From a virus, in the IMG/VR virus record IMGVR_UViG_3300012012_001295, positions 1 through 44,297 of that record: 44,297 nucleotides of DNA. One strand, written 5' to 3'. Both the position numbers and the translations under genes were made by a program. This document shows positions 8,934 through 43,305 of this stretch, one piece after another. The notes beneath the pieces were generated by a model that was not told the DNA's origin, searched no databases, and saw only the letters and a list, made by a program, of their open reading frames with translations. Positions within the stretch are counted from its first letter, which is position 1, and each line of letters starts with the position of its first letter.

Positions 8934-9749
8934 ATGAACCTAAATGCTTTAATACACACAGTCTTAGCCGAAAACTCTATAAATTTCTCAGATTATGATC
9001 TAGGGAAAAAGTTCGATCATTATAACACTCTGCTTTTCAATGGCGAGATACCTAAAATTCCTGTATATTGGGCGAAATTAAAAGGGGTTGGGGGAGTAAC
9101 AGTGGCTAAAGTTATAAAACCTTCTAATGGAAGAGGTGGATATAATAGATATCATGGCGTAACATTAATAGAAGGTTCGCTAGAGATTAAAATTTCTAAC
9201 ATATTGAAAAGGTCTGAGGATGATTTAAATGGAATCATAATTCATGAAATGATTCATGCATACTTTATATCTAAACACATGTTTGATGTAAATCATGGAT
9301 ACAAATTTGTTGAAATGGTCAACAAACTATCTAAAATGGTAGGGTTCTCTATACCATTGACGGATGAAATGACAAACGTGGATTTGGTAGATGATAGTAT
9401 TATAAAACCAGTAGGAGTGATAATACTATCTAAAACAAATGGGACTCAATCATTTGCATTAGTGTCTCATAAACTTCTACAGTCTGCGGAATTCCTAGAA
9501 TCTTTGAAGATATATAGTTATAGATTGGATATGACTAAAATAGATGCATATACGATAAAATCTAAAAATTGGCACACTGTAAGCTTAATATTTCCAATAC
9601 AAAGATTGACATCAGATTCCATAAGAAGAGGGAAGATGAAATTATATAAAATGGATGACTCTAACACTGTAGTATCAGTTTCAAACCTCTTCATAGATTT
9701 GAAAGAAAAGGGAGAACTATTAAAAACTCATAAACGACATGAAATTTGA
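8934..9749 (+). CDS. SprT-like zinc metalloprotease, copy 1, with targeting-like N-terminus
   Basis: This 271-residue protein has a SprT/WLM-type metallopeptidase region at about 25-140. It contains HEMIH (104-108) for zinc binding and catalysis, with a third ligand at His121 in NHGYKF. The first 13 residues, MNLNALIHTVLAE, fit the shared motif exactly with LAE as a possible (L/I)-x-E site. The C-terminal 130 residues, beyond the protease core, are not recognised. SprT-family proteins act on DNA or DNA-bound proteins. A role in freeing or protecting injected phage DNA is inference. Confidence 0.82.
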   Translation: MNLNALIHTVLAENSINFSDYDLGKKFDHYNTLLFNGEIPKIPVYWAKLKGVGGVTVAKVIKPSNGRGGYNRYHGVTLIEGSLEIKISNILKRSEDDLNGIIIHEMIHAYFISKHMFDVNHGYKFVEMVNKLSKMVGFSIPLTDEMTNVDLVDDSIIKPVGVIILSKTNGTQSFALVSHKLLQSAEFLESLKIYSYRLDMTKIDAYTIKSKNWHTVSLIFPIQRLTSDSIRRGKMKLYKMDDSNTVVSVSNLFIDLKEKGELLKTHKRHEI

Positions 9750-10212
9750 TGATCTATATAACAAAGTATCTAAGAATTACATATCGTTTTCGAGATATAA
9801 TCTAAAAAGTAAATATAACACTTTCAACGCAAAATATTTTAAAAACATGTTGCCTAAAATTCCTGTTGTTTGGGCCAACTTAAAAGGCGTTGGAGGATTA
9901 GCCACATGTAAGATAATAACCCCAAAATTCAAAACTGGATTTGGGACATCTAAATATCAGTATTCTAGAATATCACCAAACTCTTTAAAAATACAGATAT
10001 CCAACACTTTAAAGCGTTCAGAGAAATCAATAGATAAGATATTGATACATGAGATGATACATGTATATTTCATGGTCACTAAAAACTTCGATGAGGGACA
10101 TGGAAGCAAATTTCAGAAAATGGCTCAAAAAATTAGTAAATCTTTCGGTCAAAAAATTCCTTTAGTGGATGTCATATATAAAACTGAACAAGGATATAAT
10201 TTCACTGTTTGA
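9739..10212 (+). CDS. SprT-like zinc metalloprotease, copy 2
   Basis: This 157-residue paralogue has HEMIH (104-108) and His121 (EGHGSKF) at exactly the same positions as copy 1. It also shares the IPV-x-WA-x-LKGVGG and LKRSE blocks. It lacks the C-terminal extension of copy 1. It starts inside the end of copy 1 (11-nt overlap) with MKFDDLYNKV, which has the MKF start but no clear (L/I)-x-E at position 13. The overlap indicates translational coupling after a tandem duplication. Confidence 0.82.
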   Translation: MKFDDLYNKVSKNYISFSRYNLKSKYNTFNAKYFKNMLPKIPVVWANLKGVGGLATCKIITPKFKTGFGTSKYQYSRISPNSLKIQISNTLKRSEKSIDKILIHEMIHVYFMVTKNFDEGHGSKFQKMAQKISKSFGQKIPLVDVIYKTEQGYNFTV

Positions 10213-11020: not shown

Positions 11021-13969
11021 ATGCCGAAAGATTTAAACCTGTTGATGAGTGCCTACAACTCTATATATTTTCTAGTAGAAGATGATGGTAAGATAGGAGG
11101 AGATGCTGTAAATGCATTAAAACACGAGTTGTCTGAAATGTATATTAAAGGTGCTCCTACAGAATGGAATGATCTAGGGTTTAATAAGAGCGATTGGGAT
11201 TGGTATACGAGATTGATAGCAACTACTGAATATAATTCAGACGTAATTTCCGTTGTAACAGCAATAAAAATGCTTAACGTTTTAGGACATTATAGAAATA
11301 CACAAGTGCCTAATTATGAACAATTAAACAACGATTTAGAAGATGCAATAGACAAGAGTAGAAACAAGGAACATGTAGGCGGAAAAGAAAGAACGAAAAT
11401 AATTATAAACAGAAACAAAAAAGACCCTTATGGTAAGATTTCTGTTTATATACCCATTGGAACAAAACCTCGTCTAATAAAAATTAATAGAATATTAGAC
11501 GCAGCACTAGCACAAGAGGGTGCAGTAAAATCACCAGATACTTACGGCAATTATCTATACCCTAGATATAAAAAATTATCAGCCGATAAAGCCAACACAA
11601 ATACGTATTTTATAGACTCTATATTATTACCTAAAATTTTGTCTGAGATATTTCCAGATTTTGAAGTAGTGGATGATTCAGGGGCACAGGAAAACGCGAA
11701 AACACCACAAGAGAATGGAAAACCAATAATTAAAATAGTCAAAAAAGAACAAACGAACTTCGGGGAAAAATTGCGAATAACATTAGGAGAAGACAGTTAT
11801 AAATCTAAAGGATTCTATTTCGGATTGAAAGCTATTCCCAATATAGTTCCTAAAATATTAGCATATGGCGGAAGCAGTGATTACCTGTTAAGCACCAGAA
11901 AAGAAGATTATGACATAATAAAACCACATCTGGAAAAAATGCTGGATGTTACAGCATTAGAAGATTTTTTCTCCTCATTACCTATAGTAGCTTCTAACGG
12001 AAAAGGAATTGAAAACAGCTTAATGTTTGAAGTTTACGGAAACGGGAAAACTTTAATAAGGATAGATTGGTCAAGATTCAACAATTTCCAAAAGGATAAA
12101 ATAAATCTAAAAAAGCTAATAAAGTATACATTTCCCGATATGGATTGGGAAACCGTTCCAATGTCATATATAGTTTCTGGAGATTATGATCAATATCACA
12201 TATTTGGAACTCTTCTTAAACGTGATGGATATAACACATCAAACTATAGAAAATTTTTCGATGATATGGTAAAATCTGATGTTATAGCACCTAGAAAACA
12301 TATATTAAAAACGAAAGAAGATATTAAAACAGCAATAGACGAAGAATTTAAAAACAGCATATTTGAATTATACGGTTTACAATATGATGGAATAAAGTTT
12401 TTATACGACAGGAAATATGCAATTTTAGGTTCTGAAACTGGTGGAGGTAAAACAATGCAGTTAATATATGCCGCTGCATTAAAAATGAATGAAACCCATA
12501 ACCCAACAATAATAGTAACTCTTAAATCGGTTCAGAAACAATTCGAAGATGAAATCATTAATGTCATGGGAGAAGACGAAAGAGATAATATATCCACTAA
12601 TATCAACAATATTAAAAAATGGAACATTTTCTATTATGACAATTTCTCTAAGGGTGAAGTTCAAAAAACCATAGTGGAAAAACTTAAAAATTGTGGTGCG
12701 GGCATTTTAATATTAGATGAATTACATCAGGTTAAAGGTAGCAGTGATAAAACTAAAGAGACATCCCCGAAGAAGTGTATAAATATATCAGAAGTTGCTA
12801 AAACTATACCTATTAAATGGGGGGCAACTGCAACAATTTCAGCTAATAAGCCATTAGATGTTAAAAATCAGCTATTGATGTTGGATCACCCTTTGGGTAA
12901 AATAACCGTAGGAAAATTTAAGCAAGATTTTCAGGCAATGATTCCTTCTGGTTACGATAATTCATATGAAGAAAATCCGAACTTCGAAGAAAGATTGAAA
13001 GCTGCCGAAAGTTTGAACAAATGGCTTAATTTATTTGGGGTTTATATCAGACACACTAAGGATGCAATGAGAGCAGCTAGAGGAGAGAAAATGCCCGATT
13101 TGATAATTTCTAAATCGGTTGGCGATTTAATATCACCAAAAGCTGAAAATTTCAGGAATGAATATCTAGCTAAAATTAAAAAATTCAAAAACGAGAATTT
13201 GGCAGTATCTCAATTGATGGCAAAGAGAGAACTAATTGCGATATATAAGGTTGATGCCACAGTTAAAAATGCTATAGAAATAATAACAAAAAATCAGCAT
13301 GATTCTGAAAATAATTACGCCGCCAGTAAAATATTAATATTTTCAGCGTTTAAAAAATCTGGACAGGATTTAGTTGAAAAGTTGCAAAACGAGTTGAGTA
13401 AGATCAACAAAGATTGGAAAGTTTTATCATATCTATCAAGCACATCCAAAAGTAAACGCTTGGCTGTTAAGTCTGAATCTATAAATCCTAATGTCAAAGT
13501 TTTAGTTATGAGTCTTGAAATGGGAGGAACTGGAATATCTTTCGCTAATACCTTCAAATCTATGATAGTAAATGACTATGATTGGACACCTGAATCTATA
13601 GAACAGAGTGAGGGGAGAATTTACCGTATTAACACAAATCACGATGTTAAAATAATATATACCTTAGATTCTGGATTTGATTCAGAATTATATGAAAAAG
13701 TGGAAAAAAAGATGAAACTTGCAAAGATTATACAGCAATATAGAGACATTTACAATAATGAAGTAAACGTCGATAATTCAGAGGCATTAAATAAAATAGT
13801 GGCTGCACAAAAGGAAATAATCAAGTTAAAACAAGAAACGGCAGAACGAATATCAACAGAAATAGGAACCAAGTTTGAAGTTGCTGACTTAGCCGAGAGT
13901 TTTAGTAGATATTTATATGTTTCTAATTTAAATGTTACAGAAGAGATTTTAAGCTGCATGAAAATGTAA
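11021..13969 (+). CDS. Large SNF2-like superfamily II helicase/ATPase
   Basis: This 982-residue protein has the helicase motor in its C-terminal half: Walker A GSETGGGKT (470-478), DELH box (566-569), motif III as GATATIS, motif V as SLEMGGTGISFA, and motif VI EQSEGRIYRIN (861-870). The pattern matches SNF2/Rad54-type DNA translocases. The first 460 residues are unrecognised and may bind DNA or other phage proteins. A late promoter box drives it, so a replication role is less likely than a late or virion-associated one. The N-terminus MPKDLNLLMSAYNSIY only loosely recalls the targeting motif. Confidence 0.85.
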   Translation: MPKDLNLLMSAYNSIYFLVEDDGKIGGDAVNALKHELSEMYIKGAPTEWNDLGFNKSDWDWYTRLIATTEYNSDVISVVTAIKMLNVLGHYRNTQVPNYEQLNNDLEDAIDKSRNKEHVGGKERTKIIINRNKKDPYGKISVYIPIGTKPRLIKINRILDAALAQEGAVKSPDTYGNYLYPRYKKLSADKANTNTYFIDSILLPKILSEIFPDFEVVDDSGAQENAKTPQENGKPIIKIVKKEQTNFGEKLRITLGEDSYKSKGFYFGLKAIPNIVPKILAYGGSSDYLLSTRKEDYDIIKPHLEKMLDVTALEDFFSSLPIVASNGKGIENSLMFEVYGNGKTLIRIDWSRFNNFQKDKINLKKLIKYTFPDMDWETVPMSYIVSGDYDQYHIFGTLLKRDGYNTSNYRKFFDDMVKSDVIAPRKHILKTKEDIKTAIDEEFKNSIFELYGLQYDGIKFLYDRKYAILGSETGGGKTMQLIYAAALKMNETHNPTIIVTLKSVQKQFEDEIINVMGEDERDNISTNINNIKKWNIFYYDNFSKGEVQKTIVEKLKNCGAGILILDELHQVKGSSDKTKETSPKKCINISEVAKTIPIKWGATATISANKPLDVKNQLLMLDHPLGKITVGKFKQDFQAMIPSGYDNSYEENPNFEERLKAAESLNKWLNLFGVYIRHTKDAMRAARGEKMPDLIISKSVGDLISPKAENFRNEYLAKIKKFKNENLAVSQLMAKRELIAIYKVDATVKNAIEIITKNQHDSENNYAASKILIFSAFKKSGQDLVEKLQNELSKINKDWKVLSYLSSTSKSKRLAVKSESINPNVKVLVMSLEMGGTGISFANTFKSMIVNDYDWTPESIEQSEGRIYRINTNHDVKIIYTLDSGFDSELYEKVEKKMKLAKIIQQYRDIYNNEVNVDNSEALNKIVAAQKEIIKLKQETAERISTEIGTKFEVADLAESFSRYLYVSNLNVTEEILSCMKM

Positions 13970-13976
13970 TAAAAAG

Positions 13977-13984
13977 GATAAATA
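13977..13984 (+). promoter_or_regulatory. Late promoter box GATAAATA
   Basis: It ends 8 nt before the ATG at 13993. Confidence 0.55.
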
Positions 13985-13992
13985 TAAGAAAT

Positions 13993-14802
13993 ATGAAATT
14001 CGACGATCTTTATAAAAGTATAATTAACGAAGCTGATGAATGGGGTGAACAGAGAGAAAGGGTAGAAGGAAGCGCACAAAATGATGCATGGAAAGAAGAA
14101 AAAGCCAAGGAAGTTAAGGAACCAGAGCCAGCAGAAGACACTGTTTCCAAATTTCCAGAGTTATCAGAAGAAAATAAAAACCTTTTGAACACTTTGAACA
14201 AAGCTTTAGCTAAAGGTGCTAAATTTACATCATTCATGTATAAAACCAATGGAACTGCTGATGTTAAAAAAGGAGCACCCGCAAATGGCCCAACTAAAAT
14301 TTATAAGGTTAATTTAGGCATAAGCTATTCTAACATTAAGGCCCATAATAAAACAGTTATCGAGGGATATGAACCTAAAGACGATTGGCAAAGAAAAGCT
14401 AAAGAAGAAATGATAGTAAGTTTGTCAAAACCATTCGTTCCAGAAGATGGTGGAACCAATGTTTATGTGTCTTTGGGAAAAGGAATAAGATATAACACTG
14501 AAAAAAAATGTTTGAACATATTAGGTCAAGTAACAGGAAAAGCCGAAGTGGTTGCAGACGGACAAGAAAAACCTAAAGAATTACCTCCTTTTAAATTATC
14601 TGTAAATAATGATGGAAGTCCTAGAGGTGGTGATAAGGCATATCTAGCAAAAGCCAAAAAGGAAATCAATTTCGCTTTAAAGGATTCTCTTCGTGGAGGA
14701 TTAACATCATACGATTTGGACTTGAACAAGATAGCAGGGATAAAAGTTAGCGGCGATATGATTGAATTTCACGCTGACGGAAAACAAGACATGAGAGCTT
14801 AA
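13993..14802 (+). CDS. Hypothetical protein with canonical targeting-like N-terminus
   Basis: This 269-residue protein opens MKFDDLYKSIINE, one of the clearest copies of the shared motif, with INE as a possible cleavage site. A charged region (14-60) follows, then a Lys/Gly-rich, probably beta-structured body with no recognised family. It sits between the helicase and the ArdC-like gene and has its own late box. It is 4 nt from the ArdC-like gene, so the two are likely co-expressed. Confidence 0.78.
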   Translation: MKFDDLYKSIINEADEWGEQRERVEGSAQNDAWKEEKAKEVKEPEPAEDTVSKFPELSEENKNLLNTLNKALAKGAKFTSFMYKTNGTADVKKGAPANGPTKIYKVNLGISYSNIKAHNKTVIEGYEPKDDWQRKAKEEMIVSLSKPFVPEDGGTNVYVSLGKGIRYNTEKKCLNILGQVTGKAEVVADGQEKPKELPPFKLSVNNDGSPRGGDKAYLAKAKKEINFALKDSLRGGLTSYDLDLNKIAGIKVSGDMIEFHADGKQDMRA

Positions 14803-14806
14803 ATAT

Positions 14807-16087
14807 ATGAATAAATTTGATTCTATACTTTTTGGAAGAGTATTCACAAATATCGAAGAGCTTCTAGGGGAAAATTTAATATTAAAAAAGAAAACTCTTA
14901 GTGATGATGAATTTGTTTTCGTAGTGACAAGTGACAATCCCGACATCACAAAGGGGCAAAATGAAACTTTCCGAAATCTAGACCTCATAAGAAATTCCGG
15001 CCTGTTTATTTTCGACAAAGCAAATATTAGAAAATGGATTTCTAAAAAGATATTTAACTTGAACGATTTTAATTTAAATGTTTCAAAATATAAACATGCT
15101 ATAAACACAATAAACGGTTTAGAAGACATAATAGATTCTGCTGAAGAGTTGGAAGAATATGGCGATATAGGGTTTAGTGACAGGATAAGCATGTTCATAG
15201 ATGAATTGAAAAATAAAGTAACATCTACTGCACAATCTAAAGAAGTTTTAGATTTCTTAAATTTTAAGAAGAGATTCCACAAATATTCTTTATATAATTC
15301 TATTTTGATTTTCATACAAAATAAAAATGCGACCTTGGTTAAAGGTGCGAGAAAATGGGAAAAAGAATTGGGGAGAAAAATTAAAGCTGGCGAAAAAGGT
15401 ATTTACATATATGTTCCTATTGGAAAGAAGAAAGATGAAGAAGAAGAACCAGAAGCATCATCTTCTCAGCCTCAAAATATTAAAGATTTAAGAACTACTA
15501 GATTTAAATTAAGGCCAATTTTCGACATAAGCCAAACTGAAGAGATTCCCGGAAAAGCTGTTAAAATACCAGACGAAATTAAATGGTATTCAGAGGAAGA
15601 AGCAGATGAAAAAACCAGAATAATTTATGATGCTTTGGTGGAATTGGCGAAAACTAAAGGCGTTACTGTATCTCTTGGGAATGTTGGTCATGAAGGTGCT
15701 AGAGGAGTTAGTAAAGGAGGAAGCATAAACCTTATAAACACTAACATAGCCACATTAATACACGAATTGGCCCATGAGATGTTGCACTGGAAAGACGATA
15801 GAAAGACCTTTTCTAAACAGGTTAAAGAGTTACAAGCAGAAGGTGTTGCACATGTAGTATTGGAAGAGTTCGGTCTACCTACAGGCACCACAGAAAACTA
15901 TCTAGTATTATGGAAAATAGACGCAGAACATATCAACAAAAATGAAGACATAATCAAAAAAACCTCTGAAGAGATAATAGATTTCATAAACGATTTCGCA
16001 ACAAAAGATGCAACTCCAGAAGTTCCTGTTACTGTTCCTGAAAGTTTAAACATGTTCCAAAAAGTCCTGAAAAAATATTCACTTTAA
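14807..16087 (+). CDS. ArdC-like antirestriction protein with metallopeptidase domain
   Basis: This 426-residue protein has two parts seen in ArdC-type proteins. One is an N-proximal ssDNA-binding-like region (about 145-240) with KYSLYNSILIFIQN, GARKWEKELGR and AGEKGIYIYVPI. The other is a zinc-peptidase region with HELAHEMLHW (319-328) and a downstream Glu345. ArdC proteins protect incoming plasmid DNA from restriction. About 140 extra residues precede the ArdC part, starting MNKFDSILFGRVFTNIEE, a looser form of the shared targeting motif. An acidic linker lies at 210-222. Confidence 0.82.
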   Translation: MNKFDSILFGRVFTNIEELLGENLILKKKTLSDDEFVFVVTSDNPDITKGQNETFRNLDLIRNSGLFIFDKANIRKWISKKIFNLNDFNLNVSKYKHAINTINGLEDIIDSAEELEEYGDIGFSDRISMFIDELKNKVTSTAQSKEVLDFLNFKKRFHKYSLYNSILIFIQNKNATLVKGARKWEKELGRKIKAGEKGIYIYVPIGKKKDEEEEPEASSSQPQNIKDLRTTRFKLRPIFDISQTEEIPGKAVKIPDEIKWYSEEEADEKTRIIYDALVELAKTKGVTVSLGNVGHEGARGVSKGGSINLINTNIATLIHELAHEMLHWKDDRKTFSKQVKELQAEGVAHVVLEEFGLPTGTTENYLVLWKIDAEHINKNEDIIKKTSEEIIDFINDFATKDATPEVPVTVPESLNMFQKVLKKYSL

Positions 16088-23044: not shown

Positions 23045-23473
23045 TTATTGTTCTATTGGTTGTTCTGGAGCAGGAGCAGGAGCAGCAGCCGTTTCTGGTG
23101 CGTAAAGGTTAATATAACCCTTTAGCATTGTGGTGACACCAACAATTGATTCAGCAGCGCGGTTTATTTCGTGCCATAGTTCATCGGATATGCCCTCAAA
23201 AGCTGTTCCTTGTTTGTCCAAAACCTTCAGTAAACGCTGTAAAGAATCGGTTTCTGTTCCGTTTAGGGCATCTATTGCATTGTCTAGCAATGTAACGTAA
23301 TCAATAAGGGTTTTTGCGCCAGCAGCACCGTTTGCATCAGCACTAGGAGGAATTTCTCCGTTTACTGGTTGAACTGACGTTGGAACTGGTGCAGGTTCAA
23401 CCTTAATATCATTAGGATTAGGAACCCCACCTTCCTGTTCGTATATTTTCTTGTAAAGAGCGTCAAATTTCAT
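23045..23473 (-). CDS. Hypothetical virion-type protein with Ala/Pro linkers and targeting-like N-terminus
   Basis: This 142-residue protein opens MKFDALYKKIYEQE, close to the shared motif. A Pro/Ala/Val-rich linker (about 20-50), a helical core (55-120) and an Ala/Pro-rich tail follow. Its DNA is richer in G+C than its neighbours, which may reflect selected codon use in a highly expressed late gene. No family was recognised. GATAAATA lies 12 nt upstream. Confidence 0.75.
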   Translation of the reverse strand: MKFDALYKKIYEQEGGVPNPNDIKVEPAPVPTSVQPVNGEIPPSADANGAAGAKTLIDYVTLLDNAIDALNGTETDSLQRLLKVLDKQGTAFEGISDELWHEINRAAESIVGVTTMLKGYINLYAPETAAAPAPAPEQPIEQ

Positions 23474-27048: not shown

Positions 27049-27309
27049 TTATTTAGGCGGTAAGGCAATTTTCAAATCTTGAAACATCTTCAATATCTTA
27101 TTAGGGTCTGTCTCTTTAGCTATGTTTTGAATAGCTGGATGAGTAGAATCGTATGTAGTTGTAGGAGGCTTTGTTCCTGCTACTGGAGGAGTAGTTGGTG
27201 TTGCTGGTGTTGCTGGTGTTGTCGGAGCACCAGTGGTTGGCGCAGGAGATGTATACCCCTCTTCTAGTTCTGCGTTTACACGTTCAAAGATTTGTTCAAA
27301 TTTACTCAT
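27049..27309 (-). CDS. Small Pro/Thr-rich protein with targeting-like N-terminus
   Basis: This 86-residue protein opens MSKFEQIFERVNAE, a copy of the shared motif shifted by one residue. A low-complexity Pro/Thr/Ala linker (about 20-52) with ATPATP-type repeats follows, then a short helical C-terminus. The layout (targeting peptide, flexible linker, small domain) parallels the gene at 23045-23473. A late box lies 7 nt upstream. Confidence 0.75.
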   Translation of the reverse strand: MSKFEQIFERVNAELEEGYTSPAPTTGAPTTPATPATPTTPPVAGTKPPTTTYDSTHPAIQNIAKETDPNKILKMFQDLKIALPPK

Positions 27310-29083: not shown

Positions 29084-29347
29084 TTATGGACTTTTACGTT
29101 TTTTGTTCTTTTTTGACTTCTTTTTTGACTTCTTTTTCCCTTTTTGTCCAATTATAATATTTTCAGGGAACTTTCTTTTGATTACTTTTCCCATACCAAA
29201 TGGTTTCCTACTATCCCCTTTTGCATATGTATCCCCTGAAAATTGATCTGGCACCCCACCTATTATAGAAGGTGTTCCGAAAGCGACACCTGATGTAATA
29301 TTCTCTTCTATCACATCATTAACTAGTTGTGTAAAATTTTTAATCAT
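29084..29347 (-). CDS. Lysine-rich protein with targeting-like N-terminus; second internal head protein candidate
   Basis: This 87-residue protein opens MIKNFTQLVNDVIEE, the shared motif with two extra residues and IEE as a possible processing site. A Gly-rich middle follows. The tail from about residue 70 is almost entirely Lys and Ser, with KKKSKK repeats. A basic tail behind a targeting peptide suggests a DNA-binding protein packaged in the head. CTAAATA lies 9 nt upstream. Confidence 0.72.
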   Translation of the reverse strand: MIKNFTQLVNDVIEENITSGVAFGTPSIIGGVPDQFSGDTYAKGDSRKPFGMGKVIKRKFPENIIIGQKGKKKSKKKSKKNKKRKSP

Positions 29348-32114: not shown

Positions 32115-33165
32115 CATTTTAGAAGGTAGAAAAATAGGATTGTTTTCAGACTGCCATATAGGAGTTCATGGAAACAATGATAAATGGCACAAGATAAGTT
32201 TGGATTTTGCTGATTGGGCCATATCAGAATTCACTAAAAGAGGAGTGACAGACATAGTTTTTTGTGGGGATTTCTTCCATTATAGAGAAGAAGTAAATCA
32301 AACCACCTTAGATTGTGGAACGACTTTCCTCAAAAAATTTAAGGATTTTAATGTTGTGATGACAACAGGAAATCATTGTTGTTACTTCAAGAACAATTCT
32401 ACTATACACTCCTTGAAACCGTTTAGTGAATGGCCAAATGTAAAAGTTCTGGACACTTTAGTATCAGTTAAACAATTCAACAAAAATATATCATTTTGTC
32501 CTTGGGGTGTAGAAACTAAGGATATTCCTGATAGCGATATAATATTTGGACATTTTGAAATAGGTAACTTTAAGATAAACTCTGTAAAAATATGCGATCA
32601 CGGTATAGATTCATCCAAATTTTTAGAGAAAGGTAAGACTATTATTAGCGGACATTTTCACAACAGAGAACATAGAATATACGACGACAAGAAAGAGATT
32701 TTATATCTAGGTTCCCCTTATGAGCAAAATTGGGGAGAAGCAGGGCAGGAAAAAGGGATTACAGTATTAGACCTAGAAACAATGAAATACGAGTTCATTG
32801 TTAACAAAATATCTCCTAGACATTTGAAAATAAGTTTAGGAGAGATGTTAGAAGGTAAATCAGAATGGAAAGAACTGATAAAGGATAACATCATAGAATT
32901 GACGGTAGATGAAAAAATACCAGATGAAAAACTCAATATGGTATTGTTGAAATTGAACAATATGAATCCCATTCAATTGAAAACGAACTTTGTGTTAGAG
33001 ATGGATGACTTGACACCAACAAAACAAATGGAAAACGGTGGATATATTGATATAGATTCATCATTGAAAGAATTTATAAAGCTATTAAATACAGAATTAG
33101 ACAAGGACGAAATATATGAAAAATGCATTGATATCTACAGAAACAGCCAAACAGATTCAAACTAA
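32101..33165 (+). CDS. Recombination nuclease subunit, T4 gp47/SbcD-like
   Basis: This 354-residue metallophosphoesterase has IGLFSDCHIGVH, DIVFCGDFFHYR, TTGNHCCYF, FGHFEIG and ISGHFHNRE, the five metal-binding motifs of Mre11/SbcD/gp47. With a gp46/SbcC partner, such nucleases resect DNA ends for recombination. No gp46-like gene follows, so the partner must lie outside this window. The start overlaps the sigma gene; ATG 32107 is an equal alternative. Confidence 0.88.
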   Translation: MKMNNILEGRKIGLFSDCHIGVHGNNDKWHKISLDFADWAISEFTKRGVTDIVFCGDFFHYREEVNQTTLDCGTTFLKKFKDFNVVMTTGNHCCYFKNNSTIHSLKPFSEWPNVKVLDTLVSVKQFNKNISFCPWGVETKDIPDSDIIFGHFEIGNFKINSVKICDHGIDSSKFLEKGKTIISGHFHNREHRIYDDKKEILYLGSPYEQNWGEAGQEKGITVLDLETMKYEFIVNKISPRHLKISLGEMLEGKSEWKELIKDNIIELTVDEKIPDEKLNMVLLKLNNMNPIQLKTNFVLEMDDLTPTKQMENGGYIDIDSSLKEFIKLLNTELDKDEIYEKCIDIYRNSQTDSN

Positions 33166-33838
33166 GGTTAAATTTGTAATATTCGACAGGTTTGAATCCA
33201 CTTTAAACACGGATTTTGACGAGGAGGGAAACATCTCATTAGATTCTTCCGTTGTTAAATATACCAAAGAAGATAATACCACACAATTGAAAAACGCTGC
33301 ATTGAGAATTTTTTTCAATTCAGAAAATGAATATTGCGTATTGTGGAAATCGGATATTAGATTATCGCAACAAAGCTTAGAAAGGGTTAAGGATACGATA
33401 GGTAAATATATTAAAGCCGTTGAAGACACTAACATTCCTTATTTCACTGGCGCATTAAAAATATCCTTAAAGGTTGATTACGGTGGACAAAACATTAGTA
33501 TAGGGACAGGCTTAGGACAAAGAATAACAATAGAAGTCATTAGGAAAGATGCGATTGAGACTGTTGGTTATTTTGATGTTCGAATGACAGATTATTCGTG
33601 TATGATTGATTACGTTAATAGATTATCCAACAAAGGAAAAATGCCAAGGATAGAATATAAACAAACGCCTTGGTTCTTCGATGTTGAAAGCGATAACAAA
33701 GTATTAGAACAACCAGAAATGGATGAATATTCTAGTCAGTGGTATCTATATAAATACGAAGATTTGCCTTGGGAGCAGAGTGCTGGAAATTTGGAACATC
33801 TTAAAGAAGATTTGAAAAAAATTAAACTTGGTAAATAA
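33116..33838 (+). CDS. Hypothetical protein overlapping the gp47-like gene
   Basis: This 240-residue soluble protein shows mixed strand and helix and no recognised family. Its ATG lies 50 nt inside the gp47-like gene, an unusually long overlap here. No later ATG comes before mid-protein, so either this start or a non-ATG start is used. The stop directly abuts the ATG of the first glycosyltransferase, so it heads or bridges that operon. Confidence 0.7.
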   Translation: MKNALISTETAKQIQTKVKFVIFDRFESTLNTDFDEEGNISLDSSVVKYTKEDNTTQLKNAALRIFFNSENEYCVLWKSDIRLSQQSLERVKDTIGKYIKAVEDTNIPYFTGALKISLKVDYGGQNISIGTGLGQRITIEVIRKDAIETVGYFDVRMTDYSCMIDYVNRLSNKGKMPRIEYKQTPWFFDVESDNKVLEQPEMDEYSSQWYLYKYEDLPWEQSAGNLEHLKEDLKKIKLGK

Positions 33839-34684
33839 ATGAACGATAAAATAGGAATAGGCGTAATAACTTGTAACAGACACGAATATTTGGCTAAATG
33901 TTTAGGGTCTTTATTTAATCCTGCATATTATTCTGAATTAGTAGTTGTAAACGATGGAGAACCACATGAAGATTTTGAAAAACTTGAAAAATTAAATCTT
34001 GCTACGAAATATATACAAAACGAAAAAAATTTAGGAATCGGTAAATCTAAAAATAGAGCAATTAAATATCTTATGGATGCAGGATGTGAACATATTTTCA
34101 TTCTGGAAGATGATATAACAATAAAAAACATGATTGTTTTCCAAAAATATATTGAAGCATCTAAAGAGACTGGAATTTTACATTTAAATTATGGATTGGG
34201 AACACCATTTAACAAAAAGCAATCCGTCCAATTCGATTTACATAATAGACATGAATTAGACAATGACGGAGAACCTAATCCTAGAATAATAGTAGAATAT
34301 GAAAATATTAAAATGGCTTTCTATCCCCACATATGCGGAATGTTTTCATATTACAATAGAAAGGTGATAGAATCAATTGGGTATATTGATGAACAGTTTT
34401 ACAATGCGTGGGAACATGTTGACCATACATATCAAGCAATTAAAAAAGGGTTCCATCCTCCTTTCTGGTGGTTTGCGGACATATACAATAGTGGCGAGTA
34501 TATATCACCACAGAAAGATGCTATAAAGAATAGTGTCACTGCTAAAAATACAGACGCATGGATGGAAAACGTGCAAAAAAACGCAGATAAATACAGGATC
34601 AAAAACGGGACATATCCTGCACAAACACCACAGGTAAGTCAAGACGATTTTCTTAAAACTCTTAAAGATATAAAAAATGGATAA
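33839..34684 (+). CDS. Glycosyltransferase family 2-like, GT-A fold
   Basis: This 281-residue protein opens GIGVITCNRHEYLAKCLGSL, with VVVNDGEP (37-42), the GT-A nucleotide-sugar core. FILEDDI (Glu90-Asp91-Asp92) is in the DxD position. AFYPHICGMFSYYNRKVIESIGYIDE and NAWEHVDHTYQAIKKG resemble the acceptor side of GT2 enzymes. It is the first of the glycosyltransferase run. Donor and acceptor are unknown. Confidence 0.85.
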   Translation: MNDKIGIGVITCNRHEYLAKCLGSLFNPAYYSELVVVNDGEPHEDFEKLEKLNLATKYIQNEKNLGIGKSKNRAIKYLMDAGCEHIFILEDDITIKNMIVFQKYIEASKETGILHLNYGLGTPFNKKQSVQFDLHNRHELDNDGEPNPRIIVEYENIKMAFYPHICGMFSYYNRKVIESIGYIDEQFYNAWEHVDHTYQAIKKGFHPPFWWFADIYNSGEYISPQKDAIKNSVTAKNTDAWMENVQKNADKYRIKNGTYPAQTPQVSQDDFLKTLKDIKNG

Positions 34685-35405
34685 TATAACACTACTATCA
34701 TGCTCGTATAATACACCAGATGTTACTATATCTATGTTGAAATCATTTTTTAGTTTACATGAAAAAACGAAAGTCTTAATATGCGAAAATTCCACGAACG
34801 ATGATACAGTAAAATTACTTGATGAGCACTCAGTCCCATATATCAGAAATGTTGGAGGATTACATAGTCCATCTGTAGATATTCTTATAGAGAATTGTAA
34901 AACTGATTATGCATTGCTAGTAGATACTGATGTAATCTTTCTGAAAAATCATGAACAGGTGTTTGACGAGTTTAAAAAATGTGGTGCAACTCTTCTTGGG
35001 ACTGTTTGTGGTGACAGAGGAGGAAAAAAACTCCATTATAGGGTTCATCCTTGGCATTGCTTTATAAACATTAAGCACATAAAAGAACACGGAATAAAGT
35101 TTTTTGATGTAGTTAGACAGTCAGATAAAACAGGGAGAATTTATGATGTAGGTGCCACTTTTTTCGAGGATGTTAGAAAATGTGGTCTTAAAATAGGGGA
35201 TGTAAACTTACAAGATGATTATTATATACATTATGAAGGAATGTCTTGGAGGACATTAAAATACGGAGAAAACGATGGAGATATTGATTTAAATCCGTCA
35301 GACACTCATAATAATTTAGATTTATATAAACATGGATTATTGATAGAGAGTTTATACAAAGATAGAACACCTAAATATGATGGTGTTCTCATAAAATCCA
35401 TTTAA
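34677..35405 (+). CDS. Glycosyltransferase family 2-like, GT-A fold
   Basis: This 242-residue protein has SCSYNTPDVTISMLKSFF (N-terminal GT-A strand-helix), ICENSTNDD and LLVDTDVIFL (Asp83-x-Asp85). The C-terminal half has His residues that could complete a metal site. It overlaps the previous gene by 8 nt and is distinct in sequence from it. Confidence 0.8.
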   Translation: MDNITLLSCSYNTPDVTISMLKSFFSLHEKTKVLICENSTNDDTVKLLDEHSVPYIRNVGGLHSPSVDILIENCKTDYALLVDTDVIFLKNHEQVFDEFKKCGATLLGTVCGDRGGKKLHYRVHPWHCFINIKHIKEHGIKFFDVVRQSDKTGRIYDVGATFFEDVRKCGLKIGDVNLQDDYYIHYEGMSWRTLKYGENDGDIDLNPSDTHNNLDLYKHGLLIESLYKDRTPKYDGVLIKSI

Positions 35406-35442
35406 ATCGTAGATATTTTCGGAAAATACAATAATATATAAC

Positions 35443-36129
35443 ATGAAAACATTATCAGAGCTAGCAAACTTATATGCAACAGATAAACGAGAAGCAGATC
35501 ATAATTACGTCACATTTTATGAAAAATATTTCGAACCTCTAAGAGATTTGAAACTCAATATATGCGAAATAGGGATTCTAGAACATCCAGATAAAATAAA
35601 TAGACCCTATGGTGGAGCATCATTATTAATGTGGAGAGATTATTTTCACAATTCTGGAATATATGGAATTGATATAAACGACCATTCGTATTTAAACAAA
35701 GAGGAAAGGATTAGGACGTATGTAGCAGATCAAAGCAATAGAGAGCAACTAGGTAAGATGTTTAACGATTTGCAAATGGATATAATAATAGAAGATGGAG
35801 GACACTGGATGCATCAGCAACAAATAAGCCTAGGAATGTTATTTAAAAATGTTAAACCCGGCGGAATCTTCGTAATAGAAGACTTGCACACATCTCATCC
35901 TGATAAATCATATAATAATGAACCTTCCTTATGTAGTGGTCAAATATTTAAAAGATACGAAAACGAAACATTGACATTGGACATGTTAGAAAAATATTGT
36001 GAAACTAATGTTATAGAAAGTAATGTTATGACAACACAGGAAATACAATATCTAAATGATAATATCGATAAAATTGTTATCGAACACGCCAGATTCTCTC
36101 CTATAGCCTTTATATTTAAAAAACGATAA
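35443..36129 (+). CDS. SAM-dependent methyltransferase
   Basis: This 228-residue protein has LYATDKREADHNYVTFYEKYF and CEIGIL (motif I, 41-46). GGASLLMWRDYF, GIDIND (75-80) and IIIEDGGHWMHQQ follow. This set is typical of class I methyltransferases found in glycan and antibiotic gene clusters that methylate sugar hydroxyls. Sitting among glycosyltransferases, it may O-methylate a sugar of the same glycan. The 37-nt gap upstream is the largest in the cluster. Confidence 0.82.
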   Translation: MKTLSELANLYATDKREADHNYVTFYEKYFEPLRDLKLNICEIGILEHPDKINRPYGGASLLMWRDYFHNSGIYGIDINDHSYLNKEERIRTYVADQSNREQLGKMFNDLQMDIIIEDGGHWMHQQQISLGMLFKNVKPGGIFVIEDLHTSHPDKSYNNEPSLCSGQIFKRYENETLTLDMLEKYCETNVIESNVMTTQEIQYLNDNIDKIVIEHARFSPIAFIFKKR

Positions 36130-36130
36130 T

Positions 36131-36841
36131 ATGAAAATTAAAGCATACACTTTATTCACAGATTCCCATAAAAAATTCTTAACCGATTATTTTCTACCTA
36201 CGTTTCCGTTTAGAAGTGAAATAGAATTGACCATACTACACAGGCAACAACATTGTAAAACGGCAACTTTTGAAACTCTTGGATGGAAAGATACGATGAA
36301 AGATAAAGCTGAATGTTTTTACGAGAATATAAAAAAGTGCAATGATGATGAAATATTCATGTTTATCGATCCAGATATTCAATTTTTTGGTGATTTTTAT
36401 GATGATATAGTAGAAAGAATTAAAAATGTAGACATACTATGGCAGAACGATGTAATTGGAGGGGTAAATACTGGATTTTTTGCTGTTAGGAACAATTCTA
36501 AAACTAGAAGTTTTTTTAAAACTTTGTTAGGCAACTTAGAATCTGAGAACTTCAGTCAAGAACAAGTGTTGGCGAATTATATACTGAGAGAATATGGTGC
36601 TAACGATTCCATAAATGTTAAATGGAAATTTTTACCAGATGAATATTGGACATATGGACACATTGCAGCAACCTTTAATAAAGCTGGAACCAGCCTAAAA
36701 GGGTCTTGGACGGAAGATGCAGAAGACTTTGAAATACCTAATAACATGATAATACATCATGCGAACTGGACAGCAGGTATCGAAAACAAGATTAAACTTT
36801 TAAATATTGTCAAAAATAAGAAGAATGGAAATCAATTTTAA
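36131..36841 (+). CDS. Nucleotide-diphospho-sugar transferase, GT-A fold
   Basis: This 236-residue protein has FMFIDPDIQFFGDF (Asp80-x-Asp82) and GGVNTGFFAVRNN, with HHANWTAGIENK near the C-terminus. Together these match the nucleotide-diphospho-sugar transferase family with a DxD and a C-terminal His. It begins 1 nt after the methyltransferase stop. Confidence 0.78.
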   Translation: MKIKAYTLFTDSHKKFLTDYFLPTFPFRSEIELTILHRQQHCKTATFETLGWKDTMKDKAECFYENIKKCNDDEIFMFIDPDIQFFGDFYDDIVERIKNVDILWQNDVIGGVNTGFFAVRNNSKTRSFFKTLLGNLESENFSQEQVLANYILREYGANDSINVKWKFLPDEYWTYGHIAATFNKAGTSLKGSWTEDAEDFEIPNNMIIHHANWTAGIENKIKLLNIVKNKKNGNQF

Positions 36842-37688
36842 AAATTTAAGACCATCAGCAAACTATCCAGTATACCCACCATATCATACTGGATTATATT
36901 TGGAGGAATATTTTTATGATTTCTACATAAAAAATAAACCATTATTTGACGAAACTGGATATACTTTGATACCTGTATTTTGGACTAATGTTTATATAAC
37001 TAACGTAAATAGAAACCTACTACAGCATTATTTGAATTTATTGCCTAAAGGTAAATATTTCACGGTTTCTCAGCATGATGATGCAGTTAGTGAAAAACTA
37101 CCAGAAAACACTTTAAGTTTTGAAGCAGGAGGCAATAAAAATGGGATACCTATACCATTAATTTGTAGTCCAATACCAGAAAAGTATAAAACATATACAG
37201 ACAAGACGATGTTATGCTCTTTTACGGGTTCTATGACACATGAGATAAGAAATAAAATGTTTTCATTTTATGGGGATGATAAAGATTTTCATTTCAATGT
37301 TAAAATTTGGGAACCTACTGTAAGCGACAAGAATTTGAATGTTTTTATAGACAGTGCCAAACGGTCTAAATTTACTTTATGCCCTCGTGGATATGGGGGT
37401 CAAAGTTTTAGAATATATGAAGCTATACAATTAAATTCTGTTCCAGTTATAATATATGATAAAAAATGGTTGCCTTTTGAAGATGTTATAGATTGGAATG
37501 AATTCTGTGTTTTAGTTGATCTGAAAAATTTACATAATATTAAAAAATTGTTGATGGATATAAGTGATGATAAATATCATGAAATGTTAGAATTTGGGAA
37601 ATTTGTATATTCCAAATACTTTAACATGGAAGGCATGTCGAGAAAAATATTGGAGATGTTGACAGATTTTGGTAGAACTGATAAGTAA
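36825..37688 (+). CDS. Exostosin-like (GT47-type) glycosyltransferase
   Basis: This 287-residue protein has FTLCPRGYGGQSFRIYEAI, then SVPVIIYDKKWLPFEDVIDW, the C-terminal nucleotide-sugar-binding signature of exostosin-type enzymes. MLCSFTGSMTHEIRNKM marks the start of the second Rossmann-like domain. The ATG at 36825 is used; an upstream in-frame TTG is less likely. It overlaps the previous gene by 17 nt. Confidence 0.78.
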   Translation: MEINFKNLRPSANYPVYPPYHTGLYLEEYFYDFYIKNKPLFDETGYTLIPVFWTNVYITNVNRNLLQHYLNLLPKGKYFTVSQHDDAVSEKLPENTLSFEAGGNKNGIPIPLICSPIPEKYKTYTDKTMLCSFTGSMTHEIRNKMFSFYGDDKDFHFNVKIWEPTVSDKNLNVFIDSAKRSKFTLCPRGYGGQSFRIYEAIQLNSVPVIIYDKKWLPFEDVIDWNEFCVLVDLKNLHNIKKLLMDISDDKYHEMLEFGKFVYSKYFNMEGMSRKILEMLTDFGRTDK

Positions 37689-37698
37689 GGTGTTTACA

Positions 37699-38613
37699 AT
37701 GGAACTTAAAATACATATACCTGAATATGTCCAAGATAAAGATTTGTGTAATTTCACAGAGCTTTTTCTGTTGATTCCTTTTATAGAGTATAAGTGGTAT
37801 AATGAAGTGTGTAAAAATATGAATTGGTGGAACGATGGATTATTCACTAAATTATTCTTTAATTGTAGAGGATTGATTAAAACTTCGATAGATTCTTGCG
37901 ATGTAGTATATTTACCGTTCAAATACAATTCCAAAGATTGGAGAGTTGATGAAATATGTGGACAAGCTAAACTGCACAATAAGCGCGTAGTTGCGTTTTA
38001 TAATGACGATAACATGGAAATTTTTAAACTTCCAGAAAATTTGATACTTTTTAGGTCTTCTACGTGTAGAAATACCATTCAGAAAAACGAAAGAATTTTC
38101 CCTGCACTGGTAGCAGATCATTCAAATGTTAATGAATTGGGACAAATCAGATATGATAAAGGTGTAGGGTTTTGTGGTCATTATGAAGGAGCAAGAGAGA
38201 GGATCATAAACAAGATGGAAGAAGTTCTTCCCAATAACTGTAATTTCATAAAAAGAAACGGTTTTTACCATTCTTCGGATAGAGTTAACGCTAATACAAA
38301 ACGTCAATATTATAAAAATATAACGGAAAATAGATACACCTTATGTATGAGAGGAGCAGGGAATTTCTCGTATAGATTCTATGAAACTTTATCTTTAGGG
38401 AGAATACCCGTTCTAATTAGTAGTGATGATATTCTACCTTTTAACGATTTGATAGAATGGGAGAAATATATAATAAGAGTTCCAGAGGTTGACATAATAC
38501 ACTTAAAAGATATGATAGAGCAATGCGAAATCTCTCCAGAGAGCGTTAGAAATCTTTGGGTTGATTATTTCTCACCAGAGGGTTACGCAACAAACTTTAT
38601 AAAAGAAATATGA
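37699..38613 (+). CDS. Exostosin-like (GT47-type) glycosyltransferase
   Basis: This 304-residue relative of the previous gene has YTLCMRGAGNFSYRFYETL, then RIPVLISSDDILPFNDLIEW. GVGFCGHYEGARERIINKM sits where its neighbour has the FTGS block. The shared C-terminal order suggests an old duplication with divergence of the acceptor domain. The ATG at 37699 is preferred; an in-frame codon at 37669 lies within the preceding gene. Confidence 0.78.
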   Translation: MELKIHIPEYVQDKDLCNFTELFLLIPFIEYKWYNEVCKNMNWWNDGLFTKLFFNCRGLIKTSIDSCDVVYLPFKYNSKDWRVDEICGQAKLHNKRVVAFYNDDNMEIFKLPENLILFRSSTCRNTIQKNERIFPALVADHSNVNELGQIRYDKGVGFCGHYEGARERIINKMEEVLPNNCNFIKRNGFYHSSDRVNANTKRQYYKNITENRYTLCMRGAGNFSYRFYETLSLGRIPVLISSDDILPFNDLIEWEKYIIRVPEVDIIHLKDMIEQCEISPESVRNLWVDYFSPEGYATNFIKEI

Positions 38614-39347
38614 AAATAGCATTAATGTGTCCATCTCGTGAGAGAATAAATAAAATTTTAACATTTATTAGCAGTATTATAATAACAGCTAAAGATATTA
38701 ATAATATAACCCTAGTTCTTGGAGTAGATGAAGATGACCCTAAAATTAAAACTTATGAAAGAATAGGAAACAATTTAAATTTTGTTAAACTTGTTAAAAT
38801 ACCTGCTGGTCATTTCAAAAGTCATGGGCTTTCAGGCTTGTGGAATTATATGTATGGTTTTGTTGAAGATGATATAATAGCAATGGTTGGGGATGATATG
38901 GTATTTGAAACCTTTGGATGGGATGAGACGATAATAAACACCTTCAAAGAAAATAGTTACGGTGACAACTTTTTCATGGTTCACTGTAACGATGGCATGA
39001 GAGGCAAGGGAAATAAATACCAAAACGTTGAACCCTTGGCGGTTAATTCATTTGTCCATAAAGACTATACGAAATTAATAGGACATTATGTGGAAGATAT
39101 CGAAAAGAATATATATGAAGATACATATATACATACAGTTTTTGATATTCTAGGTAGAAGAATTTACAGACATGATATTATGATACGCCATATGCACTTT
39201 TCAGAATTTGGTAATCAGGATGAAGTATCTACAAGAATGGAGAACTTGAGAACTGGTGTTGTGAACGATCACGTTTGGACTAATAAAATTATGCCAGAGA
39301 TAAGAAAAGAGGTTGAATTGATAAGAAAAAATGTTAAATTAATATAA
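38610..39347 (+). CDS. Glycosyltransferase, GT-A fold
   Basis: This 245-residue protein has MKIALMCPSRERINK at the start, LGVDEDDP, GLWNYMYGFVEDDIIAMVGDDMVF (Asp-Asp metal site) and MIRHMHFSEFG near the end. This fits a GT2-like GT-A enzyme. It overlaps the previous stop by 4 nt (ATGA). Confidence 0.75.
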   Translation: MKIALMCPSRERINKILTFISSIIITAKDINNITLVLGVDEDDPKIKTYERIGNNLNFVKLVKIPAGHFKSHGLSGLWNYMYGFVEDDIIAMVGDDMVFETFGWDETIINTFKENSYGDNFFMVHCNDGMRGKGNKYQNVEPLAVNSFVHKDYTKLIGHYVEDIEKNIYEDTYIHTVFDILGRRIYRHDIMIRHMHFSEFGNQDEVSTRMENLRTGVVNDHVWTNKIMPEIRKEVELIRKNVKLI

Positions 39348-40141
39348 TGGTAATATACAAAACAGTATCGGGATGCAGACACGGAAATCAACTATGTCAA
39401 TATATGACAGCTAGGATAATATCCGAAAAGTTGAAATATAAGCTGTTCGGCATAAACAAAGGAGACGCAGAATTCTGCCTTAACAACATAGACCTGCAAT
39501 ACAATCAAGAGGGATATAAGGCTTACGAAACACCCATACAAAGGATAGGGGGTGCCACAGAATCCACAAGAGACTCCCCTACAGAGTGTATACATCCCAA
39601 CATAGAACTTGAGGATATATACAATGACACCACACCGAGAAAAATTGTTTTAGATGGATACTTTCAAAAGAAAAGATTCTTCATACCACATACAGAGGAC
39701 ATTAAGAAATGGTATGGTTATATAAATTATAATATTCCAAAAGATGATGCGATAATACATATACGACTAGGGGATTTAAGACAGACTAATCACCCCGACT
39801 TACTGCCTATAGAATATTATAAACAAGCAATCGAAATGTTGAATTTCAATAAACTTACTATATGCACAGATACACCAAACGACTCTGAATATATTTTACC
39901 GTTAGTGAAAAAGTATAATGCGGAAATATTTAAAGGTGACGAAAAGGAAACCATATGTTATATGGCATCTCATAATAATCTTATATTAAGCGTGGGAACA
40001 TTTAGTTTTTGGGCAAGTCTGTTCAGCAGTGGGGAGAATATCATAAATGCAATACCCACAAAGGGTAATAATAGAATAGATGAAAGCAATGGAGTAGATT
40101 TATTAATACAGAGTGAAAGACACAAATACATAAAATTATGA
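39347..40141 (+). CDS. Alpha-1,2-fucosyltransferase-like (GT11)
   Basis: This 264-residue protein has the GT11 landmarks: GCRHGNQLCQYMTAR (usual form G-x-LGNQLFQ), AIIHIRLGDLR (HxRxGD) and SVGTFSFWASLF. GT11 enzymes move fucose from GDP-fucose in alpha-1,2 linkage. The Leu usual before GNQ is replaced by His. The start overlaps the previous stop (TAATG). It lies beside another fucosyltransferase-type gene. Confidence 0.8.
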   Translation: MVIYKTVSGCRHGNQLCQYMTARIISEKLKYKLFGINKGDAEFCLNNIDLQYNQEGYKAYETPIQRIGGATESTRDSPTECIHPNIELEDIYNDTTPRKIVLDGYFQKKRFFIPHTEDIKKWYGYINYNIPKDDAIIHIRLGDLRQTNHPDLLPIEYYKQAIEMLNFNKLTICTDTPNDSEYILPLVKKYNAEIFKGDEKETICYMASHNNLILSVGTFSFWASLFSSGENIINAIPTKGNNRIDESNGVDLLIQSERHKYIKL

Positions 40142-40929
40142 CATTAATAAAAGCTACTAACAAGGGATTTTTTGCGTGTGTAAATGACACCGCTCGCCAA
40201 ATATCCCAATGTATTAAAAATGATGAGGAATGGTATATAAAATGGGGGGAAGAAAGTTTATATTACGATGCTGTAAGAGCGGGAAACGTTTGGGAATATT
40301 ATTTCAAACAATCTTTCGATTATTGTGAATGTGATAAAGTTACATCTGACTACATAGACCTATATAAATTTAAAGAAGATAATTTTAGAAAAACCATGAA
40401 TTTCATATATTCTAATTATTTTAAATTGAATGAAGAAACCGAAAAAATATTGAGAGATACTATTCAAATGTTTGACAATTCAAAGGTTTTAGGTTTACAT
40501 GTTAGAAGGACTGATAAATTTCTAATAGGTCAACATGGAACAACGTATCAACATTCTCCAGTAGATTTAGATAAATTCAAACATGAAGTGGATAATATAA
40601 AGGATGAATACGATTATATATATCTGGCAACAGATTGTCACGATGCATGTGAATACTTTAAAGCCATTTATGGCGAAAAACTGATTTATAATAAGAACTG
40701 CATTAGGAGTAAAGATAACATAGGAGTTCATAATAACCATAATAACGTTTCTGGTTATATAAAAGGATTGAATGTGGTGACAGATGCTATATTATTATCG
40801 AAATCTAAATTTCTTATAAGGTCTAATTCTAATGTGTCAATGGCTTCATTGTATATGAACTTAGAACTGGAATACTTGAACATGAATGAAAAATACTTGG
40901 GAGACAACGAAGATGACCTTATACAATAA
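40138..40929 (+). CDS. GT23/NodZ-type fucosyltransferase-like
   Basis: This 263-residue protein has LGLHVRRTDKF, the HxRRTDK signature of alpha-1,6-fucosyltransferases (FUT8/NodZ type). YIYLATDCHDA and FLIRSNSNVSMASLYMN complete the GDP-fucose-binding fold. It overlaps the GT11-like gene by 4 nt. Two fucosyltransferase types side by side suggest a fucosylated glycan made with host GDP-fucose. No GDP-fucose synthesis gene is visible here. Confidence 0.78.
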   Translation: MTLIKATNKGFFACVNDTARQISQCIKNDEEWYIKWGEESLYYDAVRAGNVWEYYFKQSFDYCECDKVTSDYIDLYKFKEDNFRKTMNFIYSNYFKLNEETEKILRDTIQMFDNSKVLGLHVRRTDKFLIGQHGTTYQHSPVDLDKFKHEVDNIKDEYDYIYLATDCHDACEYFKAIYGEKLIYNKNCIRSKDNIGVHNNHNNVSGYIKGLNVVTDAILLSKSKFLIRSNSNVSMASLYMNLELEYLNMNEKYLGDNEDDLIQ

Positions 40930-41695
40930 AAGCAGTTGGCCTACGTTTGAAGAATCTATGAAAAGAGCCGTTAATTATAACGAATCCAGAATAGAACAAA
41001 ATAAATGGGATTTGTTAGTGTCTAGGTATAATATAATTAAAGATAGACCAGTTTCAACACCTAAAATTCCTAAGATAATACACCAGATTTGGATAGGAGG
41101 AAATATGCCAAAAATACAAAAGGAGTTGTGTGAAAACGTTAAGAGTTTTTTATCTTCTGATTGGACTTATATGTTTTGGACGGAAGAAGATGTATATAAA
41201 TTGAAAACTTTTAAGAATTTAGATGAATATATGAAAACCCCCAATATGGGTCAGAAATCAGATTTATTAAGATATGAAATATTGAATCAATATGGAGGGA
41301 TTTACTTAGATACTGACTTTATAATGGTCAAAAATTTTGACGAGATGTTAGATTTAGACTTCTTCTGCGGAGTCGCATTTGATTCGTCTCCTAACCTCTT
41401 AAATGGGTTAATAGGAACAACTGCTGGAAATCCATTGATTGAAGATGTTTTAAATTTGGATGTTCCTATAGGATATAGTGATGGGATGGATGTTATTAAC
41501 TCTACTGGCCCATATTTGGTAACACGAAAATTATTTAATAATATTGAAAAAATGGATAATGTTGTTGTTTTCCCTGCATCTTTTTTTTACCCCTTTCCCA
41601 ACACTGATATAAATAAAAACCCCGACTATAAGACATATATAGAACCAGAAACTATATGCTGTCATGTTTGGCATGGATCATGGATGATATTATGA
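40913..41695 (+). CDS. DxD-motif glycosyltransferase (GT32, OCH1-like)
   Basis: This 260-residue protein has IPKIIHQIWIGGNMP, then KSDLLRYEILNQYGGIYLDTDF with the DxD, NSTGPYLV and CHVWHGSW at the C-terminus. These are all hallmarks of the Gly_transf_sug/GT32 family. The ATG at 40913 is used; it overlaps the previous gene by 17 nt. Confidence 0.88.
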   Translation: MTLYNKSSWPTFEESMKRAVNYNESRIEQNKWDLLVSRYNIIKDRPVSTPKIPKIIHQIWIGGNMPKIQKELCENVKSFLSSDWTYMFWTEEDVYKLKTFKNLDEYMKTPNMGQKSDLLRYEILNQYGGIYLDTDFIMVKNFDEMLDLDFFCGVAFDSSPNLLNGLIGTTAGNPLIEDVLNLDVPIGYSDGMDVINSTGPYLVTRKLFNNIEKMDNVVVFPASFFYPFPNTDINKNPDYKTYIEPETICCHVWHGSWMIL

Positions 41696-43300: not shown

Positions 43301-43305
43301 TTATT

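Follow-up and report, generated by a model that had tools for sequence, protein, structure and literature searches.

A phage ArdC protein with a T4-type capsid-targeting-like leader: a candidate antirestriction protein probably carried in the virion

Introduction

In this article, I discuss an ArdC gene of an uncultured, distantly T4-like phage whose product begins with what looks like a T4-type capsid-targeting leader. The ArdC protein of plasmid R388 counters HsdRMS, its protease activity is unneeded for this and the protein is required in the recipient (PMC7213743). Among phages, T4 injects internal proteins that then block type IV restriction enzymes (PMC12373910), and P1 packages its DarB protein by means of the N-terminal 30 residues, which are sufficient (PMC9024508). 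In T4, leader residues 4 and 7 are responsible for targeting and the gp21 protease cuts after L/I-x-E (PMC9026906). For polyvalent proteins that join ArdC-N to a metalloprotease domain (MPTase), transfer together with the DNA was predicted by Iyer et al. (2017, PMC5512222). Packaged antirestriction proteins, ArdC itself and a predicted transfer of ArdC-N proteins with DNA are therefore already known, and what appears to be new here is the T4-type leader on an ArdC; a literature search found no report of this combination.

The DNA analysed (the window) comprises the 44,297 nucleotides at positions 1 to 44,297 of IMG/VR record IMGVR_UViG_3300012012_001295, which continues from position 44298 with a run of N, a scaffold gap at the window end. 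Its features are collected in Table 1. The reading that I favour, and consider probable, is that the ArdC protein is made late, packaged in the head and co-injected; packaging, cleavage and antirestriction are what I infer from the sequences described below.

Table 1. Features of the ArdC locus in the window (arrows mark predicted cut sites, here and in the text)
Feature	Position	Strand	Basis or remark
SprT-like metallopeptidase, leader MNLNALIHTVLAE↓N	8934..9749	+	N-terminus, domain match
982-aa SF2/SNF2-like helicase, second leader type (LLMSAYNSIYFLVE↓D)	11021..13969	+	phrog_62; opens the syntenic G014 cluster
T4-late-promoter-like ATAAATA	13978..13984	+	15 nt before ATG of 13993 gene
269-aa protein with leader, directly upstream of ArdC	13993..14802	+	G014 orthologue starts MKFDDLFKLVMED
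ArdC gene (leader, small domain, ArdC)	14807..16087	+	426-aa ORF, ATG start
Leader, residues 1-22 (MNKFDSILFGRVFTNIEELLGE), T4 capsid-targeting-like	14807..14872	+	Alignment, pLDDT, pattern test
Conserved small alpha/beta domain, residues 23-103 (or 24-103)	14873..15115	+	Alignment of subfamily
ArdC-N (ssDNA-binding) domain, about residues 120-256, invariant FDISQTE	15164..15574	+	Pfam ArdcN 143-223, alignment of relatives
ArdC-type zincin metalloprotease domain, residues 262-400	15590..16006	+	6sna/6i89 match

A complete ArdC behind an extended N-terminus

A first-pass annotation, made from the sequence alone, had named the product ArdC-like, and this identity was borne out by Pfam ArdcN (E 1.4e-5; 25.7 bits against a cut-off of 22.6), by PHROG 7245 anti-restriction (2e-11) and by structure. 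The best structural partners of an AlphaFold2 model (28-sequence alignment; mean pLDDT 72) are the R388 ArdC entries 6sna (Z 8.7, 130 residues, 3.9 Å; a modest Z, to be weighed together with the sequence evidence) and 6i89, and the match spans both domains, with model residues 135-399 against R388 ArdC 14-292. A profile compared directly with the PDB ArdC gave no sequence match at E <= 1, and the link is visible by structure only. The C-terminal part has the HExxH and downstream glutamate helix of a gluzincin metalloprotease, with HELAH at 319-323 and E341/E345 kept in the aligned relatives, so that the C-terminal 280 or so residues are a complete ArdC (ArdC-N plus HExxH metalloprotease) and more than an ArdC-N fragment. 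Cultured phages gave partial matches alone (26-42% identical, none covering the leader), one scan of bacterial genomes gave two distant ArdC fragments and nothing more, PADLOC and NCBIfam added nothing specific to ArdC, and the Rfam and tRNA scans were empty.

That HExxH is invariant among the aligned relatives, though the protease activity of R388 ArdC is dispensable for antirestriction, points to the leading rival of the favoured reading, namely that ArdC is packaged and injected in order to cleave a defence factor or regulator of the host, with ArdC-N serving only to hold it on DNA. Host-protein cleavage has been suggested for the ArdC-like and SprT-like peptidases of jumbo phages (PMC7824862), and SprT-like peptidase genes share the cluster with ArdC here; however, plasmid ArdC keeps its catalytic motifs too, the stretch of highest conservation in the alignment is the FDISQTE block of ArdC-N, and no substrate is known, which together make this explanation unlikely.

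The same annotation had placed about 140 extra, targeting-like residues ahead of the ArdC part. An extension is indeed present, but it measures about 120 residues, because the Pfam match begins inside the profile (at position 27) and the relatives match earlier (from position 9-11); moreover, it consists of a leader limited to residues 1-22 and a separate, folded and conserved domain (24-103) that had been missed. This small domain is modelled with a pLDDT of 83 in the version from locus L012, and it is confined to this ArdC subfamily, since all loci found with it (20/20) are family members and a search for it in other proteins found none. Comparison with the PDB (Foldseek, VIA-align) gave no clear fold match and nothing above Z 4.8; a guess from the NKDFIKxLGFKWN...RRW stretch that the domain is DUF5710-like or HARP-like was dropped, with no Pfam match and no structure match above that same Z.

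The leader and its conservation

The leader itself is modelled poorly, with a pLDDT below 50 for residues 1-19. It carries F4 and I7, and LGE22 and IEE18 as L/I-x-E, and the predicted prohead-protease cut (L-L-G-E22↓N23) falls in the same column as the L-x-E of the aligned relatives, with IEE18↓L19 as a second candidate site. Among these relatives, which were taken from IMG/VR, the leader aligns with MISFKNIKxxLxE↓K and with MSKFDDVLSRILDE... of the closest one, and three divergent versions are seen: MSKFDDVLSRILDEEETSLFGE↓NLILKK in the closest relative (contig G014, 58% identity), where ILDE and FGE are the candidate cut-site motifs; MISFKNIK(T/S)xLxE↓KL(V/I)LKK in a large group; and MNDYFIIQKIYEQLLNE↓DLKL in locus L044. 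Positions 4 and 7 are F4/V7, F4/I7 or Y4/I7 in the relatives, and L/I-x-E then follows.

Put as a pattern (aromatic at 4, hydrophobic at 7, then L/I-x-E; that is, aromatic-x-x-hydrophobic...L/I-x-E), this arrangement fits 14/14 full-start family members that carry the extension and 0/13 ArdC proteins without it. In reading this count, one should bear in mind that the pattern was set post hoc and that the relatives are not independent, so that the honest unit is the three divergent leader versions. Over three contigs, it fits 22/297 gene starts and 19/1083 internal methionines (P 5e-6). The T4 controls IPI, IPII/III and gp22 (from the T4 record) show the same leader type, and the pattern also catches non-core T4 proteins such as lysozyme e, so its presence is insufficient in itself. 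The first-pass annotation had called the window leader a looser form of a shared N-terminus, and the features are there (F4, I7, LGE22), but this leader is weak alone, as shuffled residues fit in 8.6% of trials (P 0.086) and internal methionines in 1.8%; judged from the alignments, its support comes from conservation in the relatives, in many of which the leader is shorter and clearer. The T4 DNA end protector gp2 begins MAIFQIINE↓S, like a capsid-targeting leader, and is absent from the core-protein list; either the motif reaches its limit here or gp2 is a case that has been overlooked.

Head machinery in the relatives

Among the contigs of relatives, the two largest are G014 and, at a greater distance, G012, and both encode a gp21-type protease (Peptidase_S77; 8.5e-24 and 1.6e-29, respectively) in which the T4 His and Ser motifs are retained in the alignment. 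The window's own record, a 59-kb fragment, gave no gp21 match, so the protease of the window phage is presumed from these relatives; none of the gp21 type was found in 14 contigs (38-162 kb) with an unextended ArdC, fragments that may lack one. The gp22-like scaffold of G014 begins MKNFKELLKEQFTDLSE↓D, the same leader type as that of the ArdC gene.

A separate line of evidence, in which the pattern was not used, comes from small leader proteins (window 29084-29347 and its homologues) that fuse a leader to a stretch of capsid protein after the presumed cut site. The G012 capsid protein reads INE↓DNTAGNGGVFG and the leader protein of G013 reads (I)LNE↓DNTAGPGGVFG (E 4e-23), which connects the leader's end with a likely processing site of the capsid protein. 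In the G012 major capsid protein, the likely cut site lies further in, at this INE↓D. The 29084-29347 product (minus strand) is an 87-aa leader-bearing protein with a lysine-rich tail and homologues in G014 and G013, and it has the look of a basic internal protein that arose from a gp23-like capsid protein.

Late-promoter motifs and leader-bearing neighbours

T4 late promoters have ATAAATA as their core. One such element precedes the 13993-14802 gene, and the ArdC ORF begins 4 bp past the stop of that gene, so ArdC would be co-transcribed with it; the earlier description had a gene right behind a late gene with the canonical signal, and that upstream gene, probably late by its motif, does begin MKFDDLYKSIINE↓A. 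In G014, the syntenic helicase-263aa-136aa-ArdC cluster has ATAAATA 15 nt ahead of its first gene, and in L044 the element stands 13 nt upstream of ArdC. Many of the loci L001-L013 have TATAAATA some 20 nt upstream of ArdC, and others have versions that differ by one base, such as TGTAAATA. Counted within 40 bp upstream of genes, ATAAATA has a strand bias of 31 vs 6 in G014 (P 4e-5), which is lower in G012 (14 vs 4) and not significant in the window record (9 vs 5).

The genes 13993, 14807, 20362, 23045, 25594, 27049 and 29084 have leaders in the window and in G014 alike, as does the helicase in the second form, LLxxAYxxI...E↓D, which also occurs on an unrelated 136-aa protein beside ArdC in G014 (L028:5493-5903). 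Several of the other loci have further small leader-bearing genes downstream of ArdC. By these starts, the 982-aa helicase is possibly packaged in the head, and the SprT-like metallopeptidase is a possible further packaged neighbour. The helicase was also considered as a DarB orthologue and this was rejected, DarB being phrog_1685/11801 as against phrog_62, with a blastp E of 0.003 over 43 residues only.

Other genes of the window deserve mention in their own right. Adjoining the 8934 gene, 9739-10212 (plus strand) encodes a shorter protein with a weak SprT match that starts MKFDDLYNK and is without a nearby L/I-x-E. The genes 23045-23473 and 27049-27309 (both minus strand) encode small Pro/Ala/Thr-rich leader proteins with ATAAATA 14-19 nt upstream, and in G014 their leader is conserved and their body diverged. 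Positions 33116-44157 (plus strand) hold a long gene run, several members of which are glycosyltransferase-like by eye, and some have G014 counterparts, flanked there by the homologues of the window genes 32047 and 54052.

With a pattern background of 1-2% per methionine, false positives in T4 and a window leader looser than that of many relatives, one could argue that this is a late cytoplasmic ArdC that is never packaged, the likeness of its leader being due to chance or to a recruited start region without targeting function. I regard this as quite improbable, given that 14/14 versus 0/13 is unexplained by chance, that three divergent leader versions carry the same features, that late-promoter motifs are present, and that the gene sits among leader-bearing genes in two lineages.

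A proposed route from prohead to the next cell

Taken together, the favoured reading would work as follows. The ArdC gene would be transcribed late with the other leader-bearing genes, the leader would dock the protein into the prohead core (a gp22-type scaffold), and a gp21-type prohead protease would cut after L-x-E, most likely at E22. The mature protein (small domain, ArdC-N and metalloprotease) would be kept in the head and enter the next cell with the DNA. There, much as plasmid ArdC counters type I restriction, it would shield the entering genome, probably by DNA binding, and cleavage of a host target may contribute to the protection. Late expression and a leader would suit any head protein, and T4 gp2 is annotated as protecting DNA ends, so ArdC might instead act inside the head, in processing or in binding of DNA ends, and play no part in the new host; however, R388 ArdC acts on incoming DNA in recipients, and the SNF2-like helicase and SprT neighbours look like effectors, unlike assembly parts, and I consider such a head factor very improbable.

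Further points speak against a packaged shield. ArdC binds ssDNA, whereas tailed phages inject dsDNA, and R388 ArdC is effective when synthesized by the recipient cell, with its protease activity dispensable there. The idea of head packaging, which the first-pass annotation had put forward by inference, nevertheless gains support from the leaders, the gp21-type proteases of G012 and G014, the leader of the G014 scaffold, the late motifs and the leader-bearing neighbours. Its further suggestion, that packaging solves the problem of having ArdC present in time, survives in part: since R388 ArdC works when recipient-made (PMC7213743), delivery along with the DNA is plausible as an answer to the timing problem, yet the need for it is unproven.

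More tentatively, and with slightly less than even expectation, I would extend this proposal to distant T4-like phages that inject a multi-enzyme entry kit, in which ArdC, an SNF2-like helicase and an SprT-like peptidase travel under T4-type leaders and the small domain is a phage-specific adaptation. If the favoured reading is true, a leader-tagged ArdC would join phage-injected antirestriction and a plasmid shield, delivered ready-made in the virion, and would make the prediction that phage ArdC-N proteins are transferred with DNA simple to test. From sequence alone, the leader rule would also allow proteins that uncultured T4-like phages are likely to inject to be listed.

Comparison with known systems

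The polyvalent ArdC-N proteins have the same order of ArdC-N followed by metalloprotease, but they belong mostly to conjugative elements and, in the available portion of the source, are described without a capsid-targeting leader (PMC5512222). R388 ArdC (6sna, 6i89) shares the whole architecture, an ssDNA-binding N domain and an HExxH metalloprotease; unlike the window protein, it has neither the leader nor the small N domain, and it is synthesized in the recipient and has its role in conjugation. P1 DarB is a 2255-aa methylase-helicase of other PHROGs, from another phage lineage, and is alike in that an N-terminal signal steers an antirestriction protein into the head, with delivery thought to occur on infection (PMC9024508). 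The T4 proteins IPI, IPII and IPIII, injected inhibitors of the GmrSD type IV enzymes (PMC12373910, PMC3012670), are small, specific and unrelated to ArdC, and none is described as a protease or ssDNA binder; their antirestriction role is known in T4 and would be shared by the window ArdC, which resembles them in its N-terminal capsid-targeting-like sequence and L/I-x-E gp21-type site.
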